From: Archaeoglobaceae archaeon
GTDB lineage: Archaea; Halobacteriota; Archaeoglobi; Archaeoglobales; Archaeoglobaceae
Length of the DNA stretch: 39,023 bases
NCBI GenBank assembly: GCA_025057895.1
Contig: JANXEF010000008.1
Location: forward strand, 1 to 39,023
Direction: 5' to 3'
Both the position numbers and the translations under genes were made by a program. Positions 4,106 to 39,023 of this stretch are shown here, piece after piece (the first letter of the stretch is position 1; each line of letters starts with the position of its first letter). Under the pieces are notes generated by a model. It was not told the DNA's origin and ran no database searches. It saw only the letters and a list, made by a program, of their open reading frames with translations.

Positions 4106-6508
4106 TCACTTCTTTGCCAAGCTGGAGAATCCCTCTCTAAACAATCTCTCAACACATGTTGGATTGAAGCCGGCATGATAAGGTCTTATTGGTCCCTCAA
4201 CGATCTTCTTTCTACTCCAATCTATCTTCCAACCATGTTTCTCTTCAAGCTCCTTGAGAAGTTCCTCTCTCTTGGCCAATGGTAGGTCAGTTTCAGTTCT
4301 AACATAAAGATGCCAGTCATCTGGCATCCTGCCTAAGTATTTTAGACTTAGATCGATGTAATGTGTTAATTTTATAGCTCTACCCTTATCTGTGTCATTT
4401 GGTCTGAAACAGAGTTTTGCAATCAATGGAATCGCTTCTTCTACTGTTTCAGCAGCAACAAACAGATTTTGTGGAGCAGGCTCAACTCTAACTTTTTGCC
4501 CACTTCTGACATCGTAGACCATCCAGTCTTCTTCTCTGTACGGAAGACCAAGGAAAGCTCTACGATATTTGCTCCCATGAGGTCCTACAACTACTGGAAT
4601 CCCAAATCTGTTCACTGCGGTAGCTATTGCTGCAGCTTTTTGGCTGTATGCTCCCCAAGCGACTCCACATGCTCCAAGACGGTTGAGTATGTAGTCTGCA
4701 ATCTCCTCAAAGTTAGCCCTTATATTTCTCATAGCAAAAATTCTCGCAACTTTTATCGCAGCTCCGTAGATGTGGGAATTTGAAATGCAGCTTCCAAGAT
4801 TTGCAACACATCCACCATCGAAGTCATCTCGATACTTTTCATAGATCGTATTGCCCTCTTCATCTCTGTAGAGCCCTGAATCCATCGCCATACATCCAGA
4901 TGTTACAACTATGTAATTTCTTGAGGCAAATTCGTTCATGATTGTATAGGCATCCTTTGTTCCGTTCGGATAATTGCTGCATCCCACCAGTGCAATTACT
5001 CCTGGAATAGTTCCAAGAACTATTGGTGCTCCAACTTTTCGAATCTCTGAATCCCTTATTGGGCCTCTACCTCTCCTCACTTTACCCTTCTCATTTATTA
5101 TCCTGTTCCATGCAGCGTAATTGAAAACATCGATGATTGGAATCTTCTTTGGACAAACTTGTTCGCATCTACCACAGGTTATACATACATCCCATTTCTC
5201 TTCTAGAATCTTTCTATTTCCCTTCTCTGCAGCATCCATTGCTTCTCCAATTCTTATTTTCTGTGGACATGCAATCGTGCAGTTGCCACATTGTGTGCAA
5301 GCTTTAACGTAACTCATAAACTGCTCTTCAGTCAAAACTGGCTTAATCTCTCCCCTCTTTTTCCTTCTTGCTCTTGCGACCTCAACAGCTATTTCGCCAA
5401 TCTTCAGTGGGTCGAGAACAACAGCACCTGGATTTCCATCGAGCAAGTATTTGATCACTTCCTTTGGATCTTTCTTCGTCATATCTGGTAGTCCATGCAT
5501 GGCTTTTGCATTCGTGCAGAGAACTGGTATCCCAAGCTTTCCTGCATGGTAAAGAATGTCTGCCCTTATGCACTGTTCATCAATCACTATTATTTCTGGA
5601 AGACCAGATCTCACCACTTTTAACTGTCTTCCAAGCGAACCAGCAATCTTTGACATTGGCCAATATCTGCTAACATCGTGGGATGTGCAGCAAATGCCTG
5701 CTAGATCAACTTCGTCACTTAGTTTGTTGTTCTCTATGTAATCTGCGATGTTAAACGCTGGTGGAGCATGATGACCAATTACAAGCACGATAGCTTTTCT
5801 TCTATCGAGAGTGCCCATTCCTACCTCAATCAAAGGTTGATTACTCTCTCCTTTCGGCAAATTAAATGCACAAATCTGAGATATGTCTGCAATCTCTTTA
5901 CCAAGTGCATCCATCATAGCTAAATGGAAGGCTTTTGATTCGTAATCCAAATAACTTCCCTCTTGTCCAGTGTGAATAGCACTCACAACCTGGACTATCT
6001 GCTCTTCAACGTATTTCAACGCTTTTTCTAGATCTGCTAAAGTTTTTGGCTTTATCCCAGTTATTAGCTGTGTTACTGGTGCAACTTCAGAAATCTCCGG
6101 ACCTAGATCTACTGGAATCTCCTCGAGCTTTTTACCAGTTATATGCTCTATGTCGTGAAGCATATGCCTACCATGTCCTGTATGACATGAAGTGCCTATA
6201 GCAACTGCGATGTCAACGATTCTTGCAGTCTGAGTCATCAGATCGATTCCACATGCTCCGCGCTTGTTCTCAGTAAGATCACATTTCCCCATCGTGCAAA
6301 GACAACACATGTCGCAATAAGGGGCGTAAGATGGTTTATAGCGCTTTAAAAGAGTGAAATCCCAGTTTCGGAGCGTTTCAATCTGTGGAAAGGGCGTTGG
6401 ACCCATCGGTGCCCATTCCTCCTCTTCTTCAGCAACTTCTCCTATTTTTATACTGATGTTTCTCAATTCATCTACGAATATTGCCCCTTTTCTCAACTCG
6501 AGAACCAT
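4106..6508 (-). CDS. cdhA: CO dehydrogenase/acetyl-CoA synthase alpha subunit (Ni-Fe-S)
   Basis: 800 residues from ATG 6508. A TTG five codons earlier is less likely because GGTGGT sits just before the ATG. N-terminal cysteines in YCDMCCLCTMGKC (about 65-76) plus Cys86 fit the B/D clusters. Two ferredoxin motifs, CTQCGNCTIACP and CITCGRCEQVCP, lie in the middle; these are specific to the archaeal form. All C-cluster ligands are visible: His in VIGHHAP, the Cys pair in LAGICCTSHDV, Cys in VIDEQC, ALVGCSN, TSGCMAM and NLGSCIS. The enzyme oxidises CO or reduces CO2 and works with CdhB. A TATA-like element around 6537-6545 probably drives cdhAB. Confidence 0.96.
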   Translation of the reverse strand: MVLELRKGAIFVDELRNISIKIGEVAEEEEEWAPMGPTPFPQIETLRNWDFTLLKRYKPSYAPYCDMCCLCTMGKCDLTENKRGACGIDLMTQTARIVDIAVAIGTSCHTGHGRHMLHDIEHITGKKLEEIPVDLGPEISEVAPVTQLITGIKPKTLADLEKALKYVEEQIVQVVSAIHTGQEGSYLDYESKAFHLAMMDALGKEIADISQICAFNLPKGESNQPLIEVGMGTLDRRKAIVLVIGHHAPPAFNIADYIENNKLSDEVDLAGICCTSHDVSRYWPMSKIAGSLGRQLKVVRSGLPEIIVIDEQCIRADILYHAGKLGIPVLCTNAKAMHGLPDMTKKDPKEVIKYLLDGNPGAVVLDPLKIGEIAVEVARARRKKRGEIKPVLTEEQFMSYVKACTQCGNCTIACPQKIRIGEAMDAAEKGNRKILEEKWDVCITCGRCEQVCPKKIPIIDVFNYAAWNRIINEKGKVRRGRGPIRDSEIRKVGAPIVLGTIPGVIALVGCSNYPNGTKDAYTIMNEFASRNYIVVTSGCMAMDSGLYRDEEGNTIYEKYRDDFDGGCVANLGSCISNSHIYGAAIKVARIFAMRNIRANFEEIADYILNRLGACGVAWGAYSQKAAAIATAVNRFGIPVVVGPHGSKYRRAFLGLPYREEDWMVYDVRSGQKVRVEPAPQNLFVAAETVEEAIPLIAKLCFRPNDTDKGRAIKLTHYIDLSLKYLGRMPDDWHLYVRTETDLPLAKREELLKELEEKHGWKIDWSRKKIVEGPIRPYHAGFNPTCVERLFREGFSSLAKK

Positions 6509-6679
6509 TTGACCACCAATCAAATTTACTTCCCTTCACATATAAACTTTTTTAAAGTAAATATCAGAATTTTTTATAGTAGAATAATATGAATTTTTTG
6601 ATAAAACTTAGCATAAAATAGCATAAAATATCAATTTTTTCTGAAAAACTTTTAAAAGCTTTCCAAAGAAAATCCTGTT

Positions 6680-37895: not shown

Positions 37896-39023
37896 TTAGA
37901 AAACTCGAATTTTTAATCCTCTTTCAACTATTACTTTTTCAAGCAGATCCACAGCTTTAACGGGATCTTCTTCTACTATAACTTTACCCCCTGTCAGTTT
38001 TTCAACTTCTTCGGTCAACAACTTCACAACTTTATCGCTTCCGGTGATTGGTGGAATCGGCGATACATGAGTTGGAAGTCCATAAGCTACTGCAAAAACC
38101 GCGTCGATCGTTGCCTTTTGCTCCATGTATTCAGGAGCGGTAACAGCAACTGGTAGCTGAGAAATGTCCACATTAAGCTTCTCCGCAATTAATCTCAGCA
38201 AATAAGCTGTTCTTCCAACATCTGTGCAAGTTCCAAAGCTTAGAACTGGTGGAATCTTTAAAGCTTCACAAACAGCTTTAAGCTTTTCTCCAGCCAATTC
38301 TTTTGCCTCTAAACTCGTTAGTCCAGCTACCTGCAACGCAGCGTTTCCACAGCCCATTGAAAGCAAAAGAATATCTCTCTTTATCAGCTCCTTTGCAATG
38401 GCAACCGCATTTGCATCATGTGGTCCGTTTTTAAGCGTTGTGCAACTCACCAAAGCGACGACACCTTTTATATTTCCATTTTTAATTGCTTCCAAAAGCT
38501 TATCGAGACCTATTAGTTTCTCTATAGCTTCAGTTGAGAATCCAACTATTATTTTCTGTTTTCTATCAATTTTCACCGCCTTATTTTTATCTCTACTCCC
38601 AAAGTTCTCAACAGCTATCTCTACCAGCTTTTTGGCTATGTTTTCAACCTCTTCTGGCTTGTAATCCAGTCCTTGATCAATTCCTCTGAACCTCACGAGC
38701 CTGCTAACTGGGATGACTTTCACCCCATACTTCTGGTATTCTGGCAAAGAAGGCAAGGCGCAGTTCATATCCGCTGCAAAAACATCGATGCAGCCAGTTG
38801 CTAAGGCGAATTCCTGCACGATCCAGTTTCCAACTATGCCAGCAAATACTGGGCTTTTAATGCGTTGTAAAATCTCTTGTCCTGTTTCTATAAATCCAAT
38901 TATTCTCAATCCCTTTGCTCCAGCCTTCTTTGCCATATTCTGAATTTCTTCCTTCTCAGCAAGCTTTATCAAAGCAATTCCAACAAATGGCTCATGCCCA
39001 TCTACTGCGATGTTCACGTATTC
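37896..39023 (-). CDS. CooS-like (Ni-CODH family) protein with altered C-cluster site (5' end outside window)
   Basis: 375 visible codons, open to the right edge; GTG at 39017 is internal, since the frame and homology (EYVNIAVDGHEP) run on past it. CooS C-cluster ligands: His at 38994-38996 (DGHEP), Cys in AADMNC, LVSCTT, SMGCGN and SFGTCTD are all present, and the Lys in YMEQKATIDA matches the proton-transfer Lys. The Cys-Cys-Thr-Gly-Asn-Glu segment of true CooS is here IETGQE: codons 38886-38891 encode Ile-Glu in place of Cys-Cys. One of that pair binds the C-cluster. So the protein keeps the scaffold but lacks a ligand, and may bear an Fe-S or Fe-S-O cluster with a Glu ligand. The N-terminal B/D-cluster region is not in the window. 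Confidence 0.88.
   Translation of the reverse strand, partial: EYVNIAVDGHEPFVGIALIKLAEKEEIQNMAKKAGAKGLRIIGFIETGQEILQRIKSPVFAGIVGNWIVQEFALATGCIDVFAADMNCALPSLPEYQKYGVKVIPVSRLVRFRGIDQGLDYKPEEVENIAKKLVEIAVENFGSRDKNKAVKIDRKQKIIVGFSTEAIEKLIGLDKLLEAIKNGNIKGVVALVSCTTLKNGPHDANAVAIAKELIKRDILLLSMGCGNAALQVAGLTSLEAKELAGEKLKAVCEALKIPPVLSFGTCTDVGRTAYLLRLIAEKLNVDISQLPVAVTAPEYMEQKATIDAVFAVAYGLPTHVSPIPPITGSDKVVKLLTEEVEKLTGGKVIVEEDPVKAVDLLEKVIVERGLKIRVF

Follow-up and report, generated by a model that had tools for sequence, protein, structure and literature searches.

The gene at one end of this archaeal contig raises the question of what a CooS-type protein does once the Cys-Cys pair of the CCTGNE motif has been replaced. 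The window, i.e. the whole stretch of 39,023 nucleotides analysed here, is an entire contig from an archaeal genome of 1.01 Mb (79% complete) whose closest named relatives are Archaeoglobales. A preliminary description had placed the gene at 37896-39023; the frame is real and has no internal stop, but the description overlooked that it lies on the minus strand and that its 5′ part is lost at the contig end. The 375 residues encoded in the window are C-terminal; the N-terminal third of the protein, with the cysteines of the B and D clusters and the His93-equivalent residue, falls beyond the contig end, as do the promoter and the upstream gene. A search of the genome's other contigs with the CODH family model gave no match that could supply the missing N-terminus. 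At the other extremity, the last ten residues (ERGLKIRVF; 37896-37930) are unlike the KRKALGI-type ending of relatives. A late frameshift was considered as the source of these odd residues and rejected, since no shifted frame recovers the relatives' ending. The features of the gene, with residue roles predicted by alignment, are:

37896..39023, minus strand: C-terminal 375 residues of a protein assigned to the CooS-V type (group D-1) from profile and PDB matches, alignment and tree
38994..38996, minus strand: His10, predicted cluster ligand (His259 of CooS-V)
38886..38891, minus strand: Ile45-Glu46 replacing Cys-Cys; Glu46 corresponds to Glu295 of CooS-V, a hybrid-cluster ligand in that crystal structure
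38760..38762, minus strand: Cys88, predicted cluster ligand (Cys338 of CooS-V), with the conserved Asn87 just before it
38442..38444, minus strand: Cys194, predicted cluster ligand (Cys449 of CooS-V)
38349..38351, minus strand: Cys225, predicted cluster ligand (Cys480 of CooS-V)
38226..38228, minus strand: Cys266, predicted cluster ligand (Cys521 of CooS-V, where it forms a persulfide)
38121..38123, minus strand: Glu301, predicted second hybrid-cluster Glu (Glu556 of CooS-V, Glu494 of HCP)
38115..38117, minus strand: Lys303, acid-base Lys position

The NCBIfam profile identifies the window protein as a CODH (TIGR01702, 531.9 bits). Its best match in the PDB is CooS-V of Carboxydothermus hydrogenoformans (7b7q, E 4e-124, vs. 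2e-84 for the next CODH). Scores with the HCP model (TIGR01703) were 45-47 bits (46.8 for the window protein), far under its curated cut-off of 360.8. A fold search with an AlphaFold model of the fragment also returned CooS-V (7b7q) as the nearest solved structure. It should be noted that this model is only moderate (pLDDT 80, pTM 0.71, rmsd 8.4 to 7b7q) and that the relative placement of its two domains cannot be trusted; it was used for fold recognition alone.

The replacement of Cys-Cys by Ile-Glu at 38886-38891, already reported in the preliminary description, was confirmed from the codons: TTCTAT on the plus strand reads ATA GAA on the minus strand, giving Ile-Glu within GFIETGQE. In alignments with solved CODHs, the Glu falls on the second Cys of CCTGNE (the ligand, Cys295 of CODH-II) and the Ile on the other Cys, and no alternative Cys occupies the ligand position, an eventuality that the description had raised itself. 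Glu46 thus stands where the complete C-cluster ligand set of an active Ni,Fe-CODH has Cys295. The His, the four Cys and the Lys said to be kept are indeed all there (His10, Cys88, Cys194, Cys225, Cys266 and Lys303). Glu301, two residues N-terminal of Lys303 in the sequence EQK, had escaped attention, and with it every hybrid-cluster ligand expected in the visible part of the protein is present. That the Glu would reach the cluster is deduced from aligning the sequence with the CooS-V crystal structure, not from the predicted model. As also stated previously, the pair is intact in AGICCTSHDV of the window's cdhA (4106-6523, minus strand).

A decaying gene, or an assembly error at the motif, might account for such a substitution, and the truncation at the contig end and the deviant last ten residues could be taken as signs of it. 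The frame is nevertheless open throughout, the D-1 relatives all have the Glu and the surroundings of the ligands are invariant, in agreement with the earlier view that the gene is not simply decaying. A sequencing error at 38886-38891 is excluded by the same Glu in congeners and in the best 80 of 386 relatives. We consider the chance of decay or error to be negligible.

The 386 relatives come from a scan of 84,980 species genomes (GTDB), from which the best 80 were retrieved; a further comparison used 13 close full-length relatives (L003-L015) from the genomes nearest to that of the window. All of the best 80 of the 386 relatives have the Glu, the ExK and Asn-Cys motifs, and a Tyr at the His93 position, the site of the acid-base His; this Tyr is also found in the window's congeners. 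The aligned full-length congeners possess a type III D-cluster (C-X2-C-X5-C) and the B-cluster Cys (CPFCxxGLSC...). Structural group D-1 is defined by the ligand pattern His, Glu, four Cys, Tyr and Lys together with a type III D-cluster, and its active-site residues match those of HCP, extra Glu included (Inoue 2019, PMC6344411). A tree of 70 sequences places the 57 proteins with the Glu, among them 7b7q and the window protein, on one side of a single branch (SH-aLRT 100), and the Cys/Glu ligand undergoes a single change of state. Two clade D-like proteins encoded beside D-1 genes in Methanoperedens-type genomes keep the Cys and already have the Tyr and ExK, compatible with the idea that the second Glu may predate the Cys-to-Glu change.

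Judged by its sequence, the window protein is a CooS-V-type protein of clade D, structural group D-1. The lead to CooS-V given in the preliminary description, with a hybrid-like Fe/S/O cluster and no CO activity, fits closely, 7b7q being the best match by sequence and by fold, the visible ligands agreeing and the tree placing the protein on the Glu-bearing branch. The description had also spoken of an archaeal deviant CODH; the protein is both archaeal and a deviant CODH-like protein, but it is not new, since the group (D-1 of Inoue 2019, the CooS-V subclade of Jeoung 2022) already has archaeal members. The description further supposed a different substrate, and the gene context of relatives points towards stress chemistry. 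The kind of protein, its active site and its presence in archaea are already known, and the window copy is a further member. Additional copies or types occur in related genomes: two Archaeoglobaceae loci (L017, L018) encode a further cooS-type protein with GATCVGQD, a Gln at the Lys position and a clade C-like pattern, an Archaeoglobus-group genome (G043, locus L043) has two D-1 copies, and another genome (G001, L040) has a D-1 gene and a canonical CCTGNE CooS about 12 kb apart on one contig.

Among named systems, CooS-V (7b7q; PMC9311411) shares with the window protein the IE(T/S)GQE motif, the His, the four Cys, both Glu and the Lys, as well as its branch of the tree. The window protein is about 56% identical to the crystallised protein over the fragment, belongs to a hyperthermophile-type archaeal lineage, has its N-terminal clusters outside the fragment and is known from sequence alone. 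The clade D CooS of Archaeoglobus fulgidus (AF1849) comes from the same class of archaea and the same clade, although from a different species, and is likened here by published descriptions; its gene is solitary, unlinked to CO metabolism and not CO-responsive (PMC4543118, PMC13056359). HCP (hydroxylamine reductase) has the same active-site ligand set of His, two Glu and four Cys as D-1 (PMC6344411), whereas the window protein lies on the CODH side of the family, with its score far below the HCP cut-off. The Ni,Fe-CODHs (CODH-II, DvCODH and CooS of clades E and F) share with it the fold, five of six C-cluster ligands and the Lys; they differ in having Cys295 as Fe ligand in place of Glu, no extra Glu before the Lys and a separate branch, and the acid-base His that is Tyr in the family of the window protein.

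The CooS-V crystal structure contains a redox-gated channel and a [4Fe-3S-nO] cluster that lacks nickel, counts Glu295 and Glu556 among its ligands and is remodelled by redox state; the protein has no Ni and no CO activity, its reduction of NH2OH is very slow (kcat 0.13 per s), and NO reduction was not detected above background (PMC9311411). Its redox potentials are about 300 mV below those of HCP, suggesting a different role, and a C295E variant of CODH-II loses both Ni and CO activity (PMC9311411). By analogy, the window copy probably carries the same cluster as CooS-V. One could argue that the native host inserts nickel and that CO is oxidised despite the Glu, since the CooS-V studied was produced in E. 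coli (PMC9311411); cooS genes also rise under CO/NO3- in Methanoperedens, and a genetic study in M. acetivorans suggested D-1 involvement in CO oxidation, according to Inoue's account (PMC6344411). A working Ni-CODH is nonetheless very improbable in view of the properties of CooS-V and the C295E variant, the Tyr in place of the acid-base His in all of the best 80 of 386 relatives, and the lack of induction of A. fulgidus cooS by CO.

The genes beside cooS-V in the window encode an endonuclease dU family protein, an HD-domain protein, a Mut7-C protein and ribonucleotide reductase, and no cooC or nickel genes were found beside it within the window. This neighbourhood says nothing about function, and the regulation of the window copy is unreadable because its promoter and upstream gene lie beyond the contig end. 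We therefore compared the neighbourhoods of relatives, bearing in mind that loci within one lineage are kin and that neither their counts nor the p-values are independent evidence. The COG1063 and hypAB neighbours reported for D-1 (Inoue 2019, PMC6344411) are absent from the recurrent neighbour families annotated here.

A conserved operon in Archaeoglobi was looked for and rejected, nothing being constant beyond an HTH_10 regulator. This protein is encoded near cooS-V in ten loci of Archaeoglobi and their neighbours (L033:2885-3508, minus strand, and nine others, the copy in L058 being truncated); it has four invariant cysteines in its N-terminal domain and is possibly a metal or redox sensor. 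NrfD, ferredoxin and cytochrome c genes follow cooS-V in two Archaeoglobi genomes and lie a few genes upstream in a third. D-1 occurs in about 26 of 59 Archaeoglobi genomes (23 that have full-length genes, that of the window and two that have contig-end fragments), and HCP over the cut-off in 0 of 59. The idea that D-1 generally replaces HCP, suggested by these numbers, was rejected at the scale of the phylum, where the two co-occur as chance predicts (8 times vs. 10.1 expected, Fisher p 0.39); this comparison uses 34 D-1 calls, of which G083 (693 bits) is a less strong one, possibly a different form of clade D.

MsvR is a redox-sensing repressor of methanogens. Its gene is divergent from cooS-V in eight relatives (seven Thermoplasmatota loci and archaeon SCG-AAA382B04), and all eight neighbouring regulators score over the curated MsvR cut-off. 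When reduced, MsvR of M. thermautotrophicus is a repressor of fpaA, which encodes F420H2 oxidase, and the sites of MsvR can be expressed as TTCGN7-9CGAA (PMC3729527). A TTCGN8CGAA box starts 59-61 bases before the cooS-V start codon in 8/8 msvR-linked loci, with a TATA-like AT-rich stretch immediately after it, an arrangement resembling the M. acetivorans msvR promoter. Within 200 bases upstream, by comparison, such a box precedes 1.5% of the other genes in these loci (15 of 1015) and one of the 71 remaining D-1 genes (L096, likewise from Thermoplasmata). In Thermoplasmatota-type archaea we infer that cooS-V is under the control of MsvR, the box being its predicted site.

In eight ANME-2/Methanosarcinaceae loci, genes for rubrerythrin, a flavodiiron protein and, in most cases, ferredoxin-thioredoxin reductase beta (FTR) precede cooS-V on the same strand. 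The cooS-V start lies 150-230 bases past FTR, and farther where FTR was not found; given this gap, cooS-V may have a promoter of its own. An HAO-like multihaem cytochrome gene is directly downstream of cooS-V in five archaeal loci (Methanoperedens and relatives), and a Crp/Fnr-type regulator is encoded nearby in eight bacterial loci. Near D-1 genes in 12 bacterial and archaeal loci is a gene for a protein of 235-295 aa whose N-terminal domain is a 2[4Fe-4S] ferredoxin (e.g. L076:9110-9961, plus strand), a possible electron donor. In 'Ca. Methanoperedens' BLZ2, two cooS genes (L123:10001-11872, plus strand, and L123:4458-6386, minus strand) are found near a gene for a 1154-aa molybdopterin oxidoreductase, and L119 is organised likewise. 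One of the pair is D-1 (Glu) and is followed by HAO-like cytochrome, CBS and HPP-type membrane genes; in the other, the Cys is kept alongside Tyr and ExK. The cooS genes of the Methanoperedens nitrate-reductase cluster are regarded as CO-oxidising in a 2026 paper; they may be the same genes as this pair.

The msvR, flavodiiron/rubrerythrin, HAO-like and regulator contexts, together with the chemistry of CooS-V, lead us to favour, as slightly more likely than not, the view that the archaeal CooS-V-type protein has a CODH scaffold with a nickel-free hybrid cluster and acts as a low-potential reductase in oxidative or nitrosative stress. A Fe/S/O cluster would be bound through His, four Cys and two Glu; electrons would enter via the D and B clusters and, with the cluster reduced and the gas channel thereby opened, would pass to a small oxidised molecule such as NO, NH2OH or a different N- or O-species. 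Both this substrate and the defence role in Archaeoglobi are putative. Weighing against the stress reading are the slow NH2OH turnover of CooS-V, with NO reduction not detected above background, and the Archaeoglobi themselves, which have the HTH_10 regulator and no stress operon; the MsvR and flavodiiron contexts come from lineages other than that of the window.

The same type of reductase could instead serve metabolism, acting on a carbon, sulfur or nitrogen compound. The low potentials suggest a role different from that of HCP, and in Methanoperedens a molybdopterin oxidoreductase and an HAO-like cytochrome are encoded near the gene. We think this rather unlikely, as the compared neighbourhoods of relatives contain no constant metabolic partner across lineages, and the MsvR, flavodiiron and rubrerythrin associations point elsewhere. 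Alternatively, the hybrid-cluster protein might sense redox state or have a regulatory function, as a 2026 survey of gene context proposed for clade D (PMC13056359). This would agree with the frequency of transcription regulators as neighbours, both here and in that survey, and with the very slow turnover and redox-driven remodelling of CooS-V. We consider it unlikely: the neighbouring regulators bind DNA and already contain sensor domains (MsvR V4R, cNMP-type), making a further sensor superfluous, and the conserved active site, like the gas channel, has the look of an enzyme.

For clade D, the 2026 survey could discern no clear pattern; it left the clade out of further consideration and regarded a stress role as unproven (PMC13056359). 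The MsvR boxes and the flavodiiron/rubrerythrin neighbours make such a role testable in archaea. No link between MsvR and CODH, or between CooS and flavodiiron protein and rubrerythrin, is made in the titles and abstracts of the papers that a search of the open-access literature retrieved, subscription journals being outside this search; both associations look new, and are a property of the family rather than of the window copy. For the family as a whole, we tentatively propose, with somewhat less than even confidence, that D-1 proteins are defence enzymes with a hybrid cluster, on the CODH side of the family and distinguished by one ligand change, that reduce an N- or O-species and are wired to archaeal redox-stress regulation through MsvR in Thermoplasmatota and kin, flavodiiron/rubrerythrin in ANME-2 and the four-Cys HTH_10 protein in Archaeoglobi. 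Hundreds of annotated CODH genes, including one of the two cooS genes next to the nitrate-reductase-like cluster of Methanoperedens BLZ2, would then not be CO-oxidising. An annotated cooS should not be equated with CO-oxidising capacity in every Archaeoglobi, ANME or Thermoplasmatota genome.
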